A stretch of DNA of 64,000 bases from Acytostelium subglobosum LB1. Taxonomy: Eukaryota > Evosea > Eumycetozoa > Acytosteliales > Acytosteliaceae. Below the pieces are notes generated by a model. The model saw nothing but the letters and a program-made list of their open reading frames with translations. It was not told the origin of the DNA and did not search any database. The DNA is taken from positions 65,272-129,271 of the forward strand of contig NW_012236517.1 of NCBI RefSeq assembly GCF_000787575.1, written 5' to 3'. A program made the translations under genes and the position numbers. The stretch's first letter is position 1. Every line of letters begins with the position of its first letter. Shown piece after piece: positions 3,014 through 15,582 of this stretch.

Positions 3014-5228
3014 TCATTTGTTTCCTTTGACTTTGATTGATTGTCTGTAGCAGGCAATGATTGATTGGATCGTCTTGTTTGTTTGGTATGTTTTGTTTGA
3101 TTGTATTCCTTTGATGTCCAATTTTGCACCAATATCCACCAAGTACTCCAACATATAGGTGTCTGAACTATCAATAACTTGTCTACTTAATGTTGTTATA
3201 GTACTTTGTAATAAAGTTGTACGTTGTCTCTTATCCAGTCCATTGAGTATACTACCCAACATTGAGATATGTCCTCTATTAACTGCTATTCCAACCAGTT
3301 CCTCCAACTGTCCATGTCCTGAATAGATTGGACATATTGAATGAAGGAACTCAAACATTGGAGTGTTGCCAAGGTCAACAGCAGTCTTTTTCAAAGAGTA
3401 CCGATTGGGGATGTCTCTATGTTGTTTGTAGCAATGTTTGAGGTACTCAATTCTATTGAGATAGACGGCTCTCTCAATCATATTCAGTAGGAGCTCATCA
3501 CGATCTGCGCCAGAGGTCAGATGTTTGTAGGCACCTTCAAACACATCAATGTTGCTAAAATCACCAATCCTCCTCCAGTGGAATAAAGATGATATTTTTG
3601 CCAAGGACTTCTCCAACCTTGGTGATAAATCGCCGCCCAAGGAATATGCCAACATCAGCAGTCCAGACTTTTTGAATATGCCAGGTCGCAGACTGATCAA
3701 TCTGTGGATCAATGGTATGTCGCGAATTGAAACAGCAGCCAATGCAACCAGGTAAGCCCACTGATCACTGATGTAGCTGCATTGTGTTTGAAGAACGTAG
3801 ATGCATAGGTCGAGGTCAACAATATTGAGGTGTGTGAGCCACGGGAATATTCTATTGTTCTTTGACAAGAGGAAGTTGATGCAGTCCATGTCACCAAGGA
3901 ATAAAGGTGTATTGGAACCATCATCGAAGCGGGTCGATATGAAGCTCTTATCATTGAGATAGCGGACCACCTGTAGTCCATTGGAGTGATTATCACATTT
4001 CGCAAAGAAGTCAAACAATTGACCGTTGCAAGGTGAGCTTGGGAATCTAGAGAGATTGTTCCTTGGAAGATATTCAATCCAGTAGCCAACCTGTACCTTT
4101 GCCTGAGTGACAGTTCCATGCTTCACAATGATGTTGAGTAGGTTTGAATCGTATCCCCACAGTTCGTTAAGATATGGTATGAGAAGGCAATCACCTGTCT
4201 TAATGTAGGTCTGCTTGACATAGTCCTTGCACATTTGTCGTGCTGCCAGTTTGGCAAAGATCATCCTGGACTCATCTCCAATGTCGATCAACTCCTTCTC
4301 AATATGTGATGATAGTATTACATTTGCTCTTGTAGTTGATATTCCCAATGATTGTTCAAGCTGTGATAGTTCCTGTGTTCTTGGTGTATCAACTTGCAGA
4401 AGCTTGTGATTCTTCAACCTTTCAATGTGTTCCAGTTGTTGAGTTGGTGTTGCATTTGGAAGTATGTCGAATTTGGAATCAGCAATGTGAGATAGATCTG
4501 TAGTTCTTCCAATCAACAGATCAATGAGTGTTGTATCACCAGTCATAAGAATGTTGGTTGGTGATTCAGACTTAGTTGCACAGGCCTTGATCCTATTCAC
4601 AAGTTGCTTGGGGAAGTTATTCTCATCCAGTACAAAGTTGATGGTGGAAGATGAGCGTGTAGAATATAGGTAGTTGGCCACACTCTCTGATTCCTCCAAC
4701 AGGTAACCAACATTGAAGAATCCAGTATCAATCAAGTACTTTAACATTATAAACTTCTTGTTTTGCACTGCATGCCAGAGTACCTTATTCTCATACTTGA
4801 ATTGTATTGGCTTGGTCTGCAGTAACAGTGTTTGAACGATATGGAAGTTGTCTCCTTTGACAGCAATACACAATGCTTCTTGATCTCGAAAGTAGCATTG
4901 ATAACGTGTATATCTTATCGAATGTGTTATTGTCAATGGTCAGTCCACATATCGCAGACATACTGCAGACTGATGCAGATAGATATAGGTTGTGTTTGAG
5001 ACGATCGTGTATCAAACCAATGTGACCGGCCATAAGAATGTCTTGAATATCGGTCCAGTGATGATATTTAGTCTGGCATAGAAAGTCAATAGATGATAGA
5101 TCAATGTTTCGTCCCCATTTGTACATTGAGGCGATATTAACAGTACGTTGATATTTAGATAAGATGGTTCGAACTAGTGTTCGGTTGGTCAAGACCTGGA
5201 AGAAAACACTTTGTTCAGTTGATGACAT
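3014..5228 (-). CDS. dictyostelid ankyrin-type repeat protein (frame change near N-terminus)
   Basis: The main open frame (4936 down to 3014) and an overlapping N-terminal frame (from the ATG at 5228) together give about 711 residues of the dictyostelid ankyrin-type family. The start resembles that family (FFQVLTNRTLVRTILSKYQ), and the body has helix-turn-helix units such as ALCIAVKGDNFHIVQTLLL and ALAAVSIRDIPLIHRLISL. The two frames are joined if a 79-bp intron 4885-4963 is spliced (donor GTATGT, acceptor TTTCGAG, phase 1). That intron is no more AT-rich than its flanks, so a one-base frameshift (mutation or assembly error) is a real alternative. It is divergent from the two ankyrin-type genes to its right. 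The binding partner is unknown. Confidence 0.75.
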
Positions 5229-5801: not shown

Positions 5802-7850
5802 ATGAGGGACACAAGTTGTATTAATGAAGTGTTCCACAATCACTTGTTGTGTAAACTTATCTTTGGTCATGTTCATGCCATGCATATTAAGTGGTTGAGC
5901 ATACCAACGCCTCGTGTGACATCACCACCACCGACCGATGATGTTGATGGAGTCCTACGAATCATCGAAGTGATGAAGGGTGCCGAGTTGTTCAAGGGTA
6001 ACCTTCTTGAACTACTGCAGTTCAACGTCACCGAAACGTTCATTAAGGAGTTTGACAGAGTTGCCTCCATCTACCCACCCAACGTCAGTCTGTTGACATA
6101 CGCCGCACACTACAACAACACGGTGGCCTTCAATCATCTTAGACGCCATCCGAACATGTACTACGATCCCAAGTATTTCCCCAATCTGATCACCAAACAT
6201 GCCAACATCGACATGCTCCAGGGCTACCTCGCTGACGTTCCCGACCTCTGGTTACCAATCAATTGCATACCATCGTCGGTGGACACTGGAAACGTGCAGT
6301 TTGTGCGTCTGATGCTTCAACACTATGGTGGCACCATTAATCTGGAAGAATACAACAATTGTCTCGACCAAGTCAAGTTCACTCGACGTGGTGTCGATGT
6401 GAGCATGCTCAAGATGCTTCACGAGGAGTTCAACTGTCTTTACAGTTTGACCAACCTCTGGCTGTCGGCACTGAAGCACTCGGCAAAGTGTAACATGTTG
6501 GACAGTGTCCAATACATCCTTGACAACATTCCCCAGGTGGTACGCAAACAGGGAGATGAGAAGGAAGGAGACAAAGAAGAAGATGATGATATCATGGATT
6601 ATCAGATTCTTGAGAAGTGTCTCATGAGATGTGCCAAGATAGGAAATGTCACCATCTTCCAAGCGTTCGCCAAGTCAGCAGTTGGCATCAAGTATCTCAA
6701 AAAGAAGAACATCAGCGAGATCATTGACGAGGCAGCCGACCGTGGTCAAGAGGCATTCATCAAGCATCTGTTCAAACATCATGTAGGCAATGAGAATATC
6801 ACGACTAGGTGTGAGGATAAGCTCCGCGACCTCTTGGAGGCGCCACCAGCCGGTGGCTCAATGGAGTTGGCCAAGCTTCGCCCAACACCCTTGGCTGCAC
6901 TTCGCAACGATGACATCGTGTCGCTCGAGTCGCTCTTTGACAAGTTGGATGTGCTGGAAAAAAAGGATTGCCTGAAGATGTCCGAGTCAATGGCAAGGTT
7001 CATATCCAGTCCGCGTGCCACACCGTTGAAGTTCCGTGGCACATCAATCTTGAACATGGTGAAAGCTGTGGGCAAGACTGGCAGCAACATCAACGCCGAC
7101 ATTGTGTGCGAGTTCATCAACAATTGCCAACACAAGTCAACCAGCTCACTCTACAGCGCCATGAATACCGCGGCCGGCTTCTCTTCAAAGATGATGCAGC
7201 TGCTGCACACCAAGTTCAACACAGATTACGAAGCCTCTAATCTTTTGAAGGCAATGAAGAAGAAGTGCCGCGAGACCATGACTCTCCTCTTCGAATGCCT
7301 GGACAAGAAAGATATTGAAGCCGAGCATTCCCTCAAGAAAGCAATGTTCAGTTATATCGCCAATGCACCATTGGAGGATGTGATCTTCTTGCTGGACAAC
7401 ATGGACCATATCAAGAGCAACATTGAAATCTGTGAGTGGGCGGTGTGCAACAACAGAGTGGAGGTGTTTGAGTATGTGATCGGTCTGTTCACAACCGAGC
7501 AGTTTATGAAAGATACTGTCATGGCCGAGCTCATTGACCAGGCTTTTACGAAGAACAAGCCCAACCTGGTTCGCATACTCCAACAACGCTTTGAAACAGA
7601 GGAGAACAAGCCATTGGTGAGACCAACACTGGGAATACTCCTGGTGTGTGGCGAGTATGATGCATGTGACTCGCTTGAGTTCTACTTCAACTCATCGTTA
7701 TTTACCAGCATGCCCAGTCTGGATCGTTTGAGGTCGCTTTACTCCATCCAGCATCACACCTATGATCACGCCACACACAGAGTGATCAACTTGTGCAGTG
7801 ATTATATCAAGAGGATCACACCAGACCAACATCTGTCAACTCAAATGTAA
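5802..7850 (+). CDS. dictyostelid ankyrin-type repeat protein
   Basis: A single uninterrupted frame of 682 codons starts at the ATG at 5802. The N-terminus (EVFHNHLLCKLIFGHV) is the leader typical of this dictyostelid family and precedes degenerate ankyrin-like units, e.g. KHANIDMLQGYLADVPDLW, ADRGQEAFIKHLFKHHVG and NNRVEVFEYVIGLF. An acidic/basic low-complexity insert (DEKEGDKEEDDDIMD) lies near residue 255. No catalytic domain is visible, so it is probably a scaffold. It is followed only 138 bp later by a relative in the same direction, which suggests tandem duplication. Its coding GC is clearly higher than the spacers on either side, as for the other genes here. Specific function unknown. 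Confidence 0.85.
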   Translation: MRDTSCINEVFHNHLLCKLIFGHVHAMHIKWLSIPTPRVTSPPPTDDVDGVLRIIEVMKGAELFKGNLLELLQFNVTETFIKEFDRVASIYPPNVSLLTYAAHYNNTVAFNHLRRHPNMYYDPKYFPNLITKHANIDMLQGYLADVPDLWLPINCIPSSVDTGNVQFVRLMLQHYGGTINLEEYNNCLDQVKFTRRGVDVSMLKMLHEEFNCLYSLTNLWLSALKHSAKCNMLDSVQYILDNIPQVVRKQGDEKEGDKEEDDDIMDYQILEKCLMRCAKIGNVTIFQAFAKSAVGIKYLKKKNISEIIDEAADRGQEAFIKHLFKHHVGNENITTRCEDKLRDLLEAPPAGGSMELAKLRPTPLAALRNDDIVSLESLFDKLDVLEKKDCLKMSESMARFISSPRATPLKFRGTSILNMVKAVGKTGSNINADIVCEFINNCQHKSTSSLYSAMNTAAGFSSKMMQLLHTKFNTDYEASNLLKAMKKKCRETMTLLFECLDKKDIEAEHSLKKAMFSYIANAPLEDVIFLLDNMDHIKSNIEICEWAVCNNRVEVFEYVIGLFTTEQFMKDTVMAELIDQAFTKNKPNLVRILQQRFETEENKPLVRPTLGILLVCGEYDACDSLEFYFNSSLFTSMPSLDRLRSLYSIQHHTYDHATHRVINLCSDYIKRITPDQHLSTQM

Positions 7851-7988: not shown

Positions 7989-10118
7989 ATGGAGAAAGCG
8001 TTCCACTTGGTATTCAATGATAAGAAGTTGGGTATGCGAGTGATGGACCAGATTGGATATATCTTCAAGTCATTGGGCTTGGAGGATGAACATATCAAGG
8101 GTAAAGATTTGCTCAACAAACATTGTCTGAATGACTACATCCTTTACGGTGCGACAGAATGGTTCATCAAAGCATACTCCGCATCCAACTTTGCCAACAT
8201 CGCCTATATGAACGATTCTCTGTTGGAGGAAGCGATGGCCAAGTGCGACCCGCGCGCAGTGAATGTCCTAATGGCCAACCCATACATGTCGCTCAAGCCC
8301 GATCTACTCACTTCATACTTTGTTTGGAACGCGTCGAGCTGCACCAGTCCAGAGTGGGAGAGGATGTTTGATGAATTTGTCAAGATCACATGCCAGACCG
8401 CCCAACTTGATATCAGCAAGTCCAACCTGTCACTGGTCAAACACCCATCATTCATACGCAAACTGATTGAGAGCGGAACCATATTCAAACAATTCAAAGG
8501 CAGAAATTCCTATATTGAAAGCCTTGAACGGTCCTGGCTTAAGGAGAAACCATGGTCATTGGAGATGCTTCAACTGATGATGCAACACTCGCTCTTTGCT
8601 CCAAAGGGTCAGGTACGTCTGCTGCTAAAGGCCATCGAGCTTGGTATCACACCCATCGTCAAACATCTGGTTGTCGACGGCAACCTCATTCAACAAATAT
8701 TGGATAATCCCGAAAGGTCGATGTGTGTGACTGCAGAGGAGCTTATTGATCATTGTTGCGAGCAAGGACGTCTTGAGTACCTGGAGATGCTACTCAAGGT
8801 CATCCCACAACAGACATATACGGCTACCGAGGACAACTCCAATGAACCGGGTATTGGACTGCGTCAGCCTTTCCTCTCGGCGGCCATGAATGGACATCTT
8901 GCCGTTGCTGAGAGGTTACACGCAATCATTCTCTCTTATGGTCCTAGCGACTCGTCACATGCAATTGACGCGATCACGGATGTTTTGTCCAATGGACACC
9001 TGGATATGGCCAACTTCATCCTCAACATCCTTTCGTCCAATCCCGAGCGCTGTGCAAAAGACACTCGCTACATCGATGTTGTTCATGAGCGCATCTTGTC
9101 GATTGAGTTGATCGATCGAATGTTGGCACATCCCAATCTCAAGTGCAGGTTTAACGGTGTGCTTGGCAATGCCATTGCCTCGGGAAACAAGGAGGTGATC
9201 AACATGTTGATGGGAACACTTCCAGAAACAACTCCAATCAAGACGAACTATCGAGAGGCTCTTGAACAAGCGGCAAAGATCGGAGATGTGGACATGATCA
9301 GTAGGATCTTGGAGCACAAACCAAAGTCCAGTCTCACCTCTACTCACATGTGCCTTTTGATAAAGCAGATAGGCCTTCCCGATAGCAAGGTGACAGAGGA
9401 CGTTTTCATCGAGTTGGTCAACAAAATGGATGGTGGACCAGGGCAGTCGTCATCAACCCTATGCTCTTTGTTGTTGGCTGCAACGAGCAATGGTTCACTC
9501 ACAATCATCAAGTTCATCGTGGAGAAGATGTCAACCTTTGAAACAGGTGATCCCAATAGCGCAGTGCACAAGATAAGCACTTACAGCATGAAGGAGATTA
9601 TCGACTCTTGTATCGAACGTGGCGACATTGAGTCAATGGAATATCTGATCCAGGTGGCCATGAAAGTTTCAGCCACAGCCAACAAGAGGGGATACAAACA
9701 TAAGATCAGCGAGCTCTTCACTTTGCCATCGTGTAACATATCGATTCTCACACATCTCTTTGACAAGGGCTACATCACAGTCGATAACCCCAAGGACAAT
9801 ACCGTGTCATCTCTGGTGGACTGGGCCTGCAAGTATGGAAAGTCGGACATTATTCGTCTAGTGTACCAGCGTTGCACGACACCGGTACAGCTTAAGAGAC
9901 ATCTTCCATCGCTGAATTATATTTATTTGGCCGCAGCTGAGAACCATCATGAGGTGCTCACTTATCTGTTTGAAGGTGATGTCAATGGTGGTGAGCCATC
10001 ACCCTTCAAACAATCCGAGGTCAAGTTGGACATGAATCGCATGCTCCGATCAATTCGTGTCAATGCACTAAATAATGGCTACCTCAAGATCATCTCATTG
10101 ATTGACCGATTGTTATAA
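7989..10118 (+). CDS. dictyostelid ankyrin-type repeat protein
   Basis: Intronless frame of 709 codons. The start is taken as the ATG at 7989; nearby upstream ATGs at 7966 and 7975 are out of frame. Ankyrin-like units run throughout, e.g. AAMNGHLAVAERLHAI, SNGHLDMANFILNIL, ERGDIESMEYLIQVAM, YGKSDIIRLVYQRC and NHHEVLTYLFEG. It lies 138 bp behind a paralogue. Unlike that gene it lacks the NEVFHNHLL-type leader and begins MEKAFHLVFNDKK, a common alternative in the family. A closely similar but truncated copy of its last 260 or so codons sits at 50225-51052 on the other strand. A DNA transposon is inserted 37 bp after its stop codon, so its 3' end formation may use element sequence. Confidence 0.87.
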   Translation: MEKAFHLVFNDKKLGMRVMDQIGYIFKSLGLEDEHIKGKDLLNKHCLNDYILYGATEWFIKAYSASNFANIAYMNDSLLEEAMAKCDPRAVNVLMANPYMSLKPDLLTSYFVWNASSCTSPEWERMFDEFVKITCQTAQLDISKSNLSLVKHPSFIRKLIESGTIFKQFKGRNSYIESLERSWLKEKPWSLEMLQLMMQHSLFAPKGQVRLLLKAIELGITPIVKHLVVDGNLIQQILDNPERSMCVTAEELIDHCCEQGRLEYLEMLLKVIPQQTYTATEDNSNEPGIGLRQPFLSAAMNGHLAVAERLHAIILSYGPSDSSHAIDAITDVLSNGHLDMANFILNILSSNPERCAKDTRYIDVVHERILSIELIDRMLAHPNLKCRFNGVLGNAIASGNKEVINMLMGTLPETTPIKTNYREALEQAAKIGDVDMISRILEHKPKSSLTSTHMCLLIKQIGLPDSKVTEDVFIELVNKMDGGPGQSSSTLCSLLLAATSNGSLTIIKFIVEKMSTFETGDPNSAVHKISTYSMKEIIDSCIERGDIESMEYLIQVAMKVSATANKRGYKHKISELFTLPSCNISILTHLFDKGYITVDNPKDNTVSSLVDWACKYGKSDIIRLVYQRCTTPVQLKRHLPSLNYIYLAAAENHHEVLTYLFEGDVNGGEPSPFKQSEVKLDMNRMLRSIRVNALNNGYLKIISLIDRLL

Positions 10119-10147: not shown

Positions 10148-10155
10148 TAAATTCC
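10148..10155 (+). repeat. target site duplication, left copy (TAAATTCC)
   Basis: The eight bases TAAATTCC directly abut the left inverted repeat and recur exactly after the right one (15575-15582). An 8-bp duplication is the length made by P-superfamily and hAT transposases. Confidence 0.93.
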
Positions 10156-10176
10156 CAAGGGGGCCCTACTCCTGAG
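10156..10176 (+). repeat. left terminal inverted repeat
   Basis: Twenty-one bases starting CAAGGGGGCCCTACTCCT match the reverse complement of 15554-15574 with one mismatch (position 19). It includes the palindrome GGGCCC. Presumed transposase binding/cleavage end. Confidence 0.93.
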
Positions 10177-10484
10177 AATCAATAAAGTTACGCGGAGTTA
10201 TTCTCGAACTTCATCTTTAGGTTGCCCAGATTTGTTTGGCTATTTTTTTCAATTGCACAGACACATCATGATCTTCATTGACCAACATTAATTAAATACT
10301 AAACTACTACTACTACTCTTCACTGTAATATTAATATTAGAATTATTAATCTATCATCCTTGTTCCGTTCTAATTGATAGCGGTGTTTCTCCCTCATAGT
10401 TGTCAATCAAGTACGTGCACTAGGCTGTTCAAACGTTGGTCGGGAGTGGACTTCCCCTTCCCCTCGACCAATAACTGAGCAACG
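10177..10484 (+). promoter_or_regulatory. left subterminal region and presumed transposase promoter
   Basis: About 300 bp between the left inverted repeat and the first ATG of the transposase gene (10485). It is AT-rich with a TA-rich stretch at 10290-10350. It also contains AATAAA at 10181, which could serve the ankyrin-type gene ending at 10118. No clear repeat of the terminal motif was found inside it. Confidence 0.45.
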
Positions 10485-13400
10485 ATGGACAATAATAATA
10501 ATAATAAAAACAATAGCAATAATAACAATAATAACAATAATATAAGTCCAACCAATTCACCTCCAAGTAAGTAGACGCCTACAGACAGCATGCATTCAAT
10601 CAATTGATGATATATATTAATACCATGATAGAAAAAGCTCAGAAACAAGACAAGGAATCACCTACATTTACACCATCGACAGAGGAAATAGCAAGATTAT
10701 TGCACTTGTTGGTTATGTATGATATCTGCTTATTACATTTGACATTGTCGCCATTCTAACCTGCCAGTTAACTGTTCAATTCATTTAGACCTTTCAGACA
10801 TACTTTGAGTTCACGAACGACCCTACTGATACAGTACCTCACGATATACTCAAACAATTTGCGTGTAAACATGGTCTCGATGAACGCAATCTCTTCAGAT
10901 ATATTGGACACACGTATAAAGACATCTTGTTCTGGACTGGACCAAAGAGGAAAAAGAAATATTTGTTTAGAGAAAAGGTATTACTTTCAGCTGTAGCGAA
11001 TGTATCATGACCAATGAGTAACAATACTAATACACTCCCTATTTAGAACCCGACCACTGTTCATAACTTTGTAGACTGCAGAACAACAAACTCTGCCACC
11101 ATCTCATCTACGACATCATCGATGGATCATGATGATTGGATGCCCAGCAACGTAAGTCCTGCCTTCACAGTGATTAATGAAATGGATGGTATATTAACAC
11201 TGTCATATATATATTTCTAGGATGGGCCCATGGACATGCAGAATGACAGCTTGTTAGACACAGTGGACCAACAGAAAATACTCATTGACGAGTTGAGGAC
11301 TCATAATGACGAGTTGAAGACTCATAATGACGAGTTGAAGACTCATAATGACGAGCTGAAGACTCATAATGACGAGTTGAAGACTCATAATGCAGAGTTG
11401 AGGACTCGTAATGCAGAACAGAAGACACTCATTGACCAGTTGGAGGATACAATCAGGAAGCTTACCATAGAGCTGAATGATTTGATGTCCGTAAACCACA
11501 CCGACGTACTACAGAAGGACTTGAGCATGCGTGGATCCGTATTATCTATGTTTGACACCTTCCAGGCCAGCCAAGTCAAGTACATCATCAGACAGGACCC
11601 AGCCACAGCAATCAAACACGTCCACCAATTCTACAAAGGGAATGGCCCCACTGTCAACAACAAGGCATTGTGGTACACCGAAGATGTCCGCCCCAGTGGA
11701 CCCAAATTATGCCGAGGCATGTGGATCACCTCACCCTCGTCGTCAGCGTCTGCACCACATATCAACACTATCTTTGGCCTAGTACGTCATGGGTATCATT
11801 GGACAGTTGGAGATGCTAGTTACAAATCAACTGCGATCTTCAACTTCAACGCACAACAATTCTTTGTTTGCGGTTCTGGAAAGGCAGTTGCCACTGGTCG
11901 GCGCGCATCTATGTGCGATGATTGCATATCGTTCAGCGAGCGAGCACGGAAAGAGTACTCCAACTACAAGAGGTCCAAGCCCTATCTGGATTCCCCAGGT
12001 GATTCATGGCTCACCAGTAATTACAAACTGACGATGGTTGACCCACTGGTAAAGACCATCACCAGCCTTCTTGCAGACAAAGAGAGTGCAAAGAAGCTCA
12101 AGGAGAGTCTATTCTATCAGATTGTCTACGATCAGTTCAAGTCATGGTCCAACCCCCACGGCGCCCGATGGTCACAAGCCTCGATTGACTACTTCCAAAC
12201 ACTGCTGCACAATCATGGAAAGAAGTTACTGTCACTTTATGTTGGATCCAGACGGGACGTGGCTGATCTTGGAGTTGGAGGTGTACCTGCGCCCAGTCGT
12301 TCAACTCTTCAGGCCAAGACCCAAAGCGCGGCCGTCAACATGTACGACAACAGGACCCACAAGCGCTTCAAGGCCTTGCAAGCAACCGTTGGGCCTGACT
12401 GTCCTCAATTTGGCTTCGTTGCATACGATGAGATTGACATCTCCAAGGGTCTCATTATCAGAAACACCAACTTTGGCAAGGAGATGATCGGCTTGACTAC
12501 AGGGCCTGTCAACCAAGAGAATATTGAAGCCTACCTCAATGATCTCCCCTCGGTTACCGAGAAGCTTGCCACCAAGGTTCTACAGTTCTTCTATGTGTCA
12601 CTCCAGGGCCATATCTCAATCCCCATCGCGCGCTTCCCGACCAATGGCAAAGCTACAATTACTGTTGCAATCAACTGCATCAAGTATTTGATCGGAGTAG
12701 CTGAGAGGTACAACATCCGCATCATTACAGGCACAAGCGACAGCCATGACACACAGAACATAGTTCCCACTCAGATCAAGAATTGGCTAATGGAGCGTAG
12801 TCAATCACCTGTGTCCACTCAGATAACTATCCTGCCATCGCCATCCAACCTGCCATCGTCGTCGACCATTCAATCGCCAACCGCGCTGTCGACCATGCCG
12901 TCGATCAATCATTCGTCCACGCCGACTACCATTCAATCGCCGTCAACCGATCAATCGCCGTCAACCATTCAATCACCGTCGACCATTCCGTTGACCAATC
13001 ATTCGTCCACGCCGACGACCATTCAATCGCAGTCGACCAATCATTCGTCCACGCCGCCGATTACTCAATCGCCAACCGCGCTGTCGACCGTTCAATCACC
13101 GTCGACCATTCAATCGCCGTCAACCATTCAATCACCGTCGACCATGCCGTCGACCAATCATTCGTCCACGCCGACGACCATTCAATCGCCGTCAACCGAT
13201 CAATCGCCGTCAACCATTCAATCGCCAACGACTCTGCCCCCTGCCTTCACCTACAACCACATTTACGACTTTATTCATATAGTCAAGAACCTGAGAAACT
13301 TCTTTCTCGGCCCTGTTCCACTAAATGGACCCGATGGAGAGATCCACTTACGTCCACTGTTTGAGTTGAACACCACCCAGATTCGGGCATTGCTTATCCC

Positions 13401-15381
13401 CGATGACATTCATCCCAGCGACAAGATGAGACTCCAGTCAGTCAAGAATCTCATGTCCAGGAAGGTGACCAAGCACCTGCGAGAGCGTGTACCTGGTTCC
13501 TATCGATACCCTGAGAAAGATACCAAGGATACAAGGTGCTATGGAACACTTGGACTCAGGTTCGACAGTGAGACCACAGCTCAGTTCACCAAGTGGTCTC
13601 AACTCATGGACAAAGACGACGAGGGGTGGTTCGATGTTATGAATATGGACTTCGAGTTTAGTAACCTACACGACCAAGAGCCTGAGTCACATCACTCTGA
13701 TGGTGCCCCACCACTCGAGCAGTCAATCAACATCGGAACATCTGTCCAGTCCGTCAGTCCCAACACTCTGAGCGTCGAGCAGTATGAACAGAAGTTGCAA
13801 GACTTGGCAAAGATCTTCTACTTGAAGCGTGTCTTGACCATCCGCCAATTGAGTTGCTACAAGAAGTCCGCCGGCCGAACACTCAAGATGTGCCCTATAG
13901 ATGGATGTCAGGCCATCTTCTCGTACGATACCTGCTACCAGACACACGTCAATGACGACACTGCACACTCCCTTTTGAGGATTCCTCTCAACTCCGACAA
14001 GGATCAGGCCATTTCATCATTGAAAGATGAGTTCAAGAGGCTCATCCGCGACATTACTCGAGACGAACGCATTTGTCTCCCTGCCAACAATCGCATCAAG
14101 ATCATTCTCCTTGACACAGAGACAGCCAGCTTCGATAAGGGCTCACTCATCGAGGTCTCCGCTCATGAGCTCGCGACGAATGAAGTTTTCTACTCGCTCG
14201 TCAACCCCTTAGCCAGATTCAGCAATGGCGCCATCAAAGCACATGGCATACACCCAGCCGACGTCAACGGATGCCCCTATTGGGATACTGAGGGAGAGAA
14301 GTTCTTTTCATGGCTCAGAAGACACGCCGACGATCACTCAAGAGTGTACATCCTTGCTCACAACAGTGCATTCGATCTGGGTGTCATGGTTCAGTCATCA
14401 CTACGTTCTGGCCTGACGTTGGAATCATTCCCGCCCAATGTATACTTCCTCGACACCATCAACATTCTGAAACACCACAAAGACAAGTTCAATCTTACGC
14501 CACAAGTTGGCATCGAGCCACAGGGCAATGCTGTTGAACTGCACCACGACAACCAATCAGATGACGTGCTCCAGAGCAATGAGGTGTCCTCCGACCAACA
14601 TGACGACACTGATCACCAGTTATCCAACGATTACGTCAATCATTTCAATGGCTCCAGTAGCGACGACGACAGAGATTTCAGTGACGACGACGACAGTGAT
14701 TATTGTGACGACGACAGTGGTGACAACGACGACAGTGGTGACAATAGTGATGTCGACCGTCGTGTGTCAACAGTTCCAGCAACCCCACGACCAGCTGTCA
14801 ATAACGAGATCACTTCTGATGACACACCTTCCAAACCTTCCAAACTATCCTACAGTTTGGACAACGTTACGCGTGCTCTGAACATTGGCAACGTCGATAC
14901 GGCCATGCTATCGAGACATCGCTCCTCCTATGACGTGGTGGTCCTGTATCAGGTACTAGACAAACTGCGCCAACTTGCAGACCGTGACCTGTCGACATTG
15001 TCTTTCCTTCAGAAGGTGGCCTTTCGTTTGCACTCAAATGCCAAAGTCCTCCGTCTCCATTGCTTAGAATATTTGAAGAAAGACACAGACCTGACCACCG
15101 AGATGATACAGGAGCTATATGAACTCTCGCCAAAGACTACCCGTTCCACAAAGACCACTCGTTCCACAAAGACCACTCGTTCCACACAGCCAGCACCTGC
15201 TCCGCAACCGCCCGGTGATGTGATTAATTCAGAGAGGTACTTGGCATTTATGAGTTTCAAAGTGAGCGAGATGAAGGCCTTGCTCAAGGCAAGATCTTGT
15301 CCGTTCAAAAGTGATGAACTCAAAGCTCAATTATGCTACAGACTCTATCTGAAAGAAGATATAGCGGCGCCTACCAAATAA
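10485..15381 (+). CDS. P-element/THAP9-like transposase fused to DEDDh exonuclease and SAP-like domain
   Basis: Five exons (10485-10566, 10632-10711, 10789-10977, 11047-11151, 11221-15381) give about 1,538 residues; the donor at 10712 (GTTATG) is the least certain. Order: Asn-rich start; a small basic domain (FACKHGLDERNLFRYIGHTY, possibly winged-helix); coiled coil with tandem heptads (THNDELK); catalytic core with first Asp in VAYDEIDISKGLII (about residue 555), second in TGTSDSHDTQN (about 659), a Ser/Thr/Pro/Gln-rich insert, then IYDFIHIVKNLRNFF and GWFDVMN as in THAP9-like proteins; C2H2-like finger (CPIDGC...H...H, about 1043-1068); DEDDh exonuclease (DTETAS about 1117, HNSAFDLG about 1199, HRSSYD about 1385) split by an acidic insert; basic TTRSTK repeats; SAP-like end. 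A typical QDxLExFF motif carrying the third acidic residue was not seen. It likely cuts and pastes this element; the nuclease's role is unknown. Confidence 0.85.
11299..11403 (+). repeat. tandem 21-bp repeats encoding coiled-coil heptads
   Basis: Four to five near-identical 21-bp units coding for THNDELK followed by diverging THNAELR and TRNAEQK units. Heptads of this kind predict a parallel coiled coil, matching the leucine-zipper position between DNA-binding and catalytic parts in P-type transposases. Confidence 0.85.
12823..13236 (+). repeat. in-frame Ser/Thr/Pro/Gln repeat tract inside the transposase core
   Basis: Repeated units around STIQSP and NHSSTPTTIQS, with the DNA unit close to TCGACCATTCAATCGCCG, fill about 140 codons between the second catalytic Asp and the IVKNLRN motif. 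The repetition points to slippage or unequal exchange. It would be a disordered linker. Confidence 0.85.
14644..14760 (+). repeat. acidic Asp/Ser tract within the exonuclease domain
   Basis: Runs of GAC codons (SSSDDDRDFSDDDDSD and on) form the core of a roughly 110-residue insert between exonuclease motif II (HNSAFDLG) and the final H-x4-D motif. Low complexity, length probably variable. Confidence 0.8.
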
Positions 15382-15553
15382 ATATATATGTTGACCACTT
15401 TTAATAATTAATTAATTAATTATTAAGTTAATGCCAAAGTGATTGATTGAGTGAGCCAGGTGATTGAGAGGTGCATGGGTTTATGATTTGGCGGGAACAA
15501 TTCAGTTTGAGAATATTTGAAAAACTCGTTGTCGTAAATAGTGACCGTCCTTA

Positions 15554-15574
15554 CTGAGGAGTAGGGCCCCCTTG
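15554..15574 (-). repeat. right terminal inverted repeat
   Basis: Reverse complement reads CAAGGGGGCCCTACTCCT plus three bases, matching the left end with one difference over 21 bases. It is followed at once by the second TAAATTCC. Confidence 0.93.
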
Positions 15575-15582
15575 TAAATTCC
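15575..15582 (+). repeat. target site duplication, right copy (TAAATTCC)
   Basis: Exact match to 10148-10155. Removing the element and one copy would restore an ordinary AT-rich spacer. Confidence 0.93.

Follow-up and report, generated by a model that had tools for sequence, protein, structure and literature searches.

We analysed a window of 64,000 nucleotides from Acytostelium subglobosum LB1 (assembly GCF_000787575.1, contig NW_012236517.1, positions 65,272 to 129,271 of the forward strand); all positions given here are relative to the window. It contains a transposon with boundaries at 10156 and 15574 that looks intact, with inverted repeats at its ends, a target site duplication on its flanks and one predicted gene:

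10148 to 10155, no strand: left copy of the 8-bp target site duplication, TAAATTCC, identical to the right copy
10156 to 10176, forward strand: left terminal inverted repeat, 21 bp, CAAGGGGGCCCTACTCCTGAG, matching the opposite end at 20 of 21 positions
10485 to 10566, forward strand: predicted exon 1, with ATG and a GTAAGT donor; the frame is stop-free across the five exons
10643 to 10716, forward strand: predicted exon 2, GT..AG borders, frame kept
10789 to 10977, forward strand: predicted exon 3, N-terminal region, GT..AG borders, frame kept
11047 to 11151, forward strand: predicted exon 4, GT..AG borders, frame kept
11221 to 15381, forward strand: exon 5, one uninterrupted frame that encodes the transposase core, the finger, the exonuclease and the C-terminal part
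15554 to 15574, reverse strand: right terminal inverted repeat, 21 bp, matching the opposite end at 20 of 21 positions
15575 to 15582, no strand: right copy of the target site duplication, TAAATTCC, identical to the left copy

The initial annotation of this stretch had described 21-bp inverted repeats with one mismatch and an exact 8-bp duplication, and we found both as described: the repeat reads CAAGGGGGCCCTACTCCT(G/C)AG, the ends differ at one position, and TAAATTCC stands on both flanks. By a rough estimate, such a repeat pair with its duplication is expected about 5e-7 times by chance in 64 kb. The genome search with the 21-bp ends that had been proposed as a check returned two sites in the 30.7-Mb assembly at up to three mismatches, both of them the element's own ends. 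Inside both ends, at 10199-10210 and 15504-15515, there are inverted copies of a 12-bp sequence that differ at one position (TATTCTCGAACT / TATTCTCAAACT); the pair is placed roughly like the subterminal repeats of the P element, yet occurs at chance level (E 0.71). Upstream, an ankyrin-repeat open reading frame (ORF) of 709 aa occupies 7989-10118, and its stop lies 29 bp ahead of the target duplication, so that the insertion is just downstream of this ORF. This neighbouring gene, poly-Asn tracts and short introns give the host the look of a dictyostelid amoeba.

The assembly contains one full-length copy and, at C49:1260625-1261036, a relic of the element's 3' part that is about 410 bp long. 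Over 414 aligned columns the relic differs from the element by 10 substitutions and 5 gap columns, and its coding part carries two single-base insertions. It spans the SAP-like end and the 3' region, and lacks the exonuclease, the core and the right terminal repeat. The relic shows that related sequence was formerly present elsewhere in the genome; it says nothing for the presence of the fusion described below at another site. On one side the relic is bordered, by eye, by a palindromic repeat with ends AGTACGGAATCCGGT (relic and repeat together: L025, about 3620-4270). This 15-mer occurs at seven places in the assembly, two of them beside the relic, while the same 15-mer read backward, used as a control, occurs at none.

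The five-exon model, with GT..AG borders, gives a predicted protein of 1,536 aa. The initial annotation had one long gene, with a protein of 1,538 residues. Exon 5 is an open frame of 1,386 codons, within which the ORF at 11230-15381 encodes 1,383 aa; residue numbers below refer to this ORF. Third-position GC in five pieces of the ORF is 0.54-0.67, similar to that of four other ORFs in the window (0.53-0.63). Early in the long exon, at 11245-11454, is a run of repeats spaced at 21 bp and encoding THNDELK-like units, which is probably a coiled coil. No Pfam family exceeds its cut-off in the N-terminal region (exon 3), and the first 170 residues of the predicted protein have no THAP match at E <=10. 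THAP is present in animal members of the P superfamily and is not regarded as necessary for every member.

The transposase half of the long frame contains the following features:

12367 to 12753, forward strand: P-type RNase H N-terminal domain (PF21787) with D400 and D504, profile match at ORF residues 380-508
12802 to 13254, forward strand: Ser/Thr/Pro/Gln-rich low-complexity stretch between the second Asp and DxxH, borders approximate and set by eye
13264 to 13299, forward strand: YDFIHIVKNLRN, with the [C/D]xxH signature (D680, H683) as defined in PMC8230255
13624 to 13644, forward strand: GWFDVMN block with D802, recognised by eye
13891 to 13968, forward strand: C2H2-like finger, C-x4-C-x12-H-x6-H, recognised by eye

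Against a cut-off of 24.6, PF21787 scores 24.4 bits in the whole ORF, 27.1 bits in a 433-aa piece holding the core and 29.2 bits in a search of the genome, in which nothing else in the assembly matched at E <=0.1. One reversed and one shuffled version of the core gave no match at E <=1. The signature described for the Drosophila P-element protein consists of D230, D303, D339 of the [C/D]xxH motif and E531, with D444 also conserved and essential (PMC8230255). When assigned by eye, D400, D504, D680xxH683 and D802 follow the order of D230, D303, D339 and D444. The spacings are longer here: 104 residues between the two Asp, compared with 73 (P element) and 70, and 176 from the second Asp to DxxH, compared with 36 (P element) and 40. 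The second difference is due mostly to the Ser/Thr/Pro-rich stretch of about 150 residues. From D680 to D802 there are 122 residues, compared with 105 in both the P element (D339-D444) and human THAP9 (D414-D519).

Taking D802 of the GWFDVMN block as the counterpart of D444, an assumption made by eye, the spacing in P and THAP9 (87-94 residues after the Asp) predicts the third catalytic residue at 889-896, and there is no Glu in that interval. The nearest are E850, E853 and E934, and the catalytic Glu could sit elsewhere. Pfam scans of the whole ORF and of its pieces gave no match to the GTP-binding or RNase H C-terminal models, and the part of the insertion domain that we recognised, by eye, is the GWFDVMN block only. 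A need for GTP and a 17-nt staggered cut are further marks of the P superfamily. The finger resembles those of YY1 weakly and locally (E 0.21 in a search of PDB sequences). As read from profiles and motifs, then, the N-terminal half of the transposase is P-like, and the C-terminal half is without a recognisable P-type profile.

An 8-bp duplication fits hAT transposons as well as P elements. As far as PMC3985635 describes them, P families are without the hAT dimerisation domain, which the hAT families of that clade have. This domain (PF05699) is absent among the 23 families listed for the whole ORF at E <=10. The element is like the P element and THAP9 in its 8-bp duplication, inverted repeats, P-type RNase H N-terminal profile and D / D / DxxH / D order; the profile, the duplication and the order speak for the P-superfamily-like identity proposed in the initial annotation, while the GTP-binding insert and the third Glu were not recognised. 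Unlike them, it has no match to THAP, GTP-binding or RNase H C-terminal models and no placed third Glu, and it carries a large low-complexity insert, an extra finger and a DEDDh exonuclease in a predicted 1,536 aa.

The exonuclease half of the frame has these parts:

14107 to 14958, forward strand: DEDDh (DnaQ-like) exonuclease, PF00929, with D962, E964, D1049, H1230 and D1235
14503 to 14829, forward strand: low-complexity insert within the exonuclease, residues 1092-1200, mostly acidic, omitted in the joined-piece profile run
15247 to 15297, forward strand: SAP-like stretch, sub-threshold

RNase_T (PF00929) matches the whole ORF at 30.6 bits, over its cut-off of 24, with the match ending at profile position 125. 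When residues 1092-1200 were omitted and the remaining pieces joined, the score rose to 42.3 bits and the match covered positions 2-164 of 164 with all five motif residues included. The full-profile match thus supports H-x4-D (H1230, D1235) as the last motif. For the exonuclease sequence read backward there was no RNase_T match. In the NCBIfam library of bacterial and archaeal models, the joined piece matches bacterial DnaQ/PolC best (E 1.1e-10), with all such matches far under the cut-offs for naming; among PDB sequences it matches RNase T only, always at E > 0.3. The SAP domain (PF02037) named in the initial annotation reaches 15.6 bits, below its Pfam cut-off of 23.9, and we rejected it.

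The other part of that description, a DnaQ-type nuclease in the transposase protein, agrees with our results: PF00929 is over its cut-off, and DTE, HNSAFD and H-x4-D lie in one frame with the core. Each of the motifs it had listed (AYDEID, GTSDSHD, YDFIHIVKNLRN, GWFDVMN, the finger and the three nuclease motifs) could be located. It had named the lack of any significant P-type RNase H or exonuclease profile as fatal to its reading; both profiles exceed their cut-offs, PF21787 as a piece and in the genome search, though it stays just short of its own in the whole ORF.

Related DDE transposons provide two precedents for such a fusion. The exonuclease of KolobokD is of the DEDDh type and is described as resembling exuperantia, TREX and ERI1 and as degrading DNA intermediates from their 3' end; Kolobok duplicates a 4-bp TTAA target (PMC9587614). 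Our element is like KolobokD as a DDE transposon that encodes a DEDDh exonuclease with a proposed action on 3' ends, and unlike it in the 8-bp duplication that replaces TTAA and in an exonuclease that scores best with DnaQ/PolC (in the bacterial and archaeal library). In Dada, some transposases contain a DnaQ-like DEDDy exonuclease between the second Asp and DxxH, for which cleaved 3' ends were the suggested substrate, and the elements with definable ends are located in small RNA genes (PMC3706591). The likeness to Dada is a DnaQ-like exonuclease within the transposase of a DDE transposon; the difference is that the domain here is DEDDh and follows DxxH, whereas that of Dada is DEDDy and precedes it. 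The insertion site is unlike that of Dada too: no Rfam family reaches its gathering threshold in the 64-kb window.

Among the papers listed by full-text searches of a largely open-access literature, judged by titles and the beginnings of abstracts, we recognised none that describes a P-superfamily element with an exonuclease. The initial annotation knew of no P-type transposase with a proofreading-type exonuclease; this stands for the P superfamily as searched and does not extend to the sister superfamilies of Dada and KolobokD. Since those two are published, the fusion is a P-superfamily addition to a known theme.

Searches for relatives covered a large protein collection, viral contigs, prokaryote genomes and PDB sequences. 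In the protein collection the core region gave no match at E <=0.001 among the 8,000 candidates with the most words in common, the exonuclease region none at E <=0.01 among 53 candidates, and the DxxH region none at E <=1 among 65 candidates. Viral contigs and prokaryote genomes scanned with parts of the element yielded no relative. We assume that eukaryotes are thinly represented in these collections, so the absence of matches is no proof of uniqueness. Among PDB sequences nothing matched significantly, whether the query was the whole ORF, the DxxH part, the core or the exonuclease, and two AlphaFold models built without an alignment have mean pLDDT of 32.4 and 39.0, very low values that make them unusable.

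As a possible source of the domain within the assembly, we compared it with five of the nine other places that match RNase_T (L015, L016, L017, L020 and L021; the remaining places are L018, L019, L023 and L024). The one place that aligned across the exonuclease domain was L015 (27% over 131 residues, E 2e-9), which is a bacterial-type DnaQ and lies on a Chlamydiae-like contig. Among the other four compared, the best scores were 24.6 bits, at E 0.006, and 21.9 bits, at E 0.025, with the motifs unaligned. As far as these comparisons go, the host's own exonucleases were set aside as the source. L015 itself aligned with the host's L020 (E 8e-4) and gave no alignment with L021. The similarity to L015 is a lead towards a bacterial-type domain and no proof of where it came from.

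One contig of the assembly, C32 (502 kb), carries bacterial-style genes by eye, among them lysyl-tRNA synthetase-like, pyruvate dehydrogenase-like and DnaQ-like genes (L026, G000:C32:50001-60000, for example 6009-7025). Of the 66 prokaryote loci that match the pyruvate dehydrogenase-like protein, 53 are chlamydial by name; the best match (79%) is titled Verrucomicrobia and the next (75%) Parachlamydiales. Judged on this one 10-kb stretch, the contig is likely to be from a chlamydial symbiont or a contaminant.

Taken together, the ends, the duplication, the continuous frame, the P-type N-terminal half of the RNase H and the complete set of DEDDh motifs are all present in the sequence. We give even odds to the interpretation that the element is a P-superfamily-like cut-and-paste transposon whose transposase is fused to a DEDDh 3'-5' exonuclease that would process 3' DNA ends. 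The uniform third-position GC and the published transposons with exonucleases also speak for it. Against it stand the PF21787 score in the whole ORF, the unmatched GTP-binding and RNase H C-terminal models, the interval 889-896 with its missing Glu, the single full copy and the failure to find a relative in which conservation would show. Cutting by the P-element transposase leaves 17-nt 3' extensions on the element ends (PMC7776569), from which, by geometry, we infer that the donor flanks would be 3'-tailed as well. Trimming of long 3' overhangs at excision sites, one of the roles that the initial annotation had suggested for the nuclease, is plausible. In the mechanism we propose, the transposase would cut at the inverted repeats and insert the element with an 8-bp stagger, and the exonuclease would trim 3' single-stranded DNA arising in excision. 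Its likeliest substrate would be the 3' tail of the donor flank, provided that cleavage within the repeats is staggered as it is for the Drosophila P element; once the tail is trimmed, the broken donor site could be rejoined. The exonuclease would need to be kept off the element's own transferred 3' ends. If the stagger is that of the P element, each donor tail would hold the palindrome GGGCCC, and one may speculate that the tails pair and leave flaps to be trimmed. We consider doubtful the fuller version of this scheme, in which the DEDDh domain chews the donor-flank 3' tails so that little or no footprint is left, the tails pair through GGGCCC, and the exonuclease perhaps lies within the RNase H fold before the third acid.

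Other explanations have to be weighed against this fusion with a role in end processing. The exonuclease could have been captured as a passenger, replacing or disrupting the transposase's C-terminal half; in that case the element would have landed recently, be catalytically incomplete and perhaps have been moved in trans, and the nuclease would have no role in transposition. The unmatched RNase H C-terminal and GTP-binding models in the Pfam scans, the Glu missing at the expected spacing, and the single full copy with one relic speak for this. We nevertheless think it unlikely, with roughly one chance in a handful, as the 4.1-kb frame is free of stops, the recognised motif residues are intact in both halves, and the assembly offers no candidate helper, whether sought by the same ends or by PF21787 at E <=0.1.

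Rather less probable is an exonuclease embedded in the RNase H fold, where it would belong to the insertion domain and be followed by the third catalytic acid near the C-terminus. No third acid was found ahead of the exonuclease, Dada offers a precedent for an internal position (there between the second Asp and DxxH), and about 140 residues lie beyond the exonuclease, with E1280 among the candidates by eye; but no RNase H profile matches this C-terminal part, and the predicted structures are unusable at the pLDDT values given above.

The nuclease might also act on RNA and shield the element from RNA silencing, like ERI-1 trimming small RNAs. ERI-1 is a SAP plus DEDDh protein, and the DEDDh domain with a SAP-like end is reminiscent of it. 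Against this, the SAP match is sub-threshold, the host protein that looks ERI1-like by eye gave no alignment over the domains, the best models are DnaQ/PolC, and the sole PDB matches, to RNase T, are not significant. Some DnaQ-fold enzymes cut RNA, so the likeness to DnaQ/PolC is not decisive here, and we regard an RNA substrate as very improbable. That two adjacent genes or an assembly join simulate the fusion is hardly credible: the gene model is predicted only, but an uninterrupted frame of 1,386 codons spans both halves, and both lie within a single pair of ends and duplications.

Were the fuller scheme of donor-tail trimming true, we would know of no earlier P-superfamily element that brings its own DNA end-repair activity. 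Provided that the fusion works, P-like elements would be the third related DDE superfamily with an acquired DnaQ-fold exonuclease, beside Dada and KolobokD, and repeated acquisition of this kind would indicate a common need for 3'-end processing in DxxH transposases. The metal-binding residues of the exonuclease would give a handle on what removes the long 3' tails left by P-type cutting.
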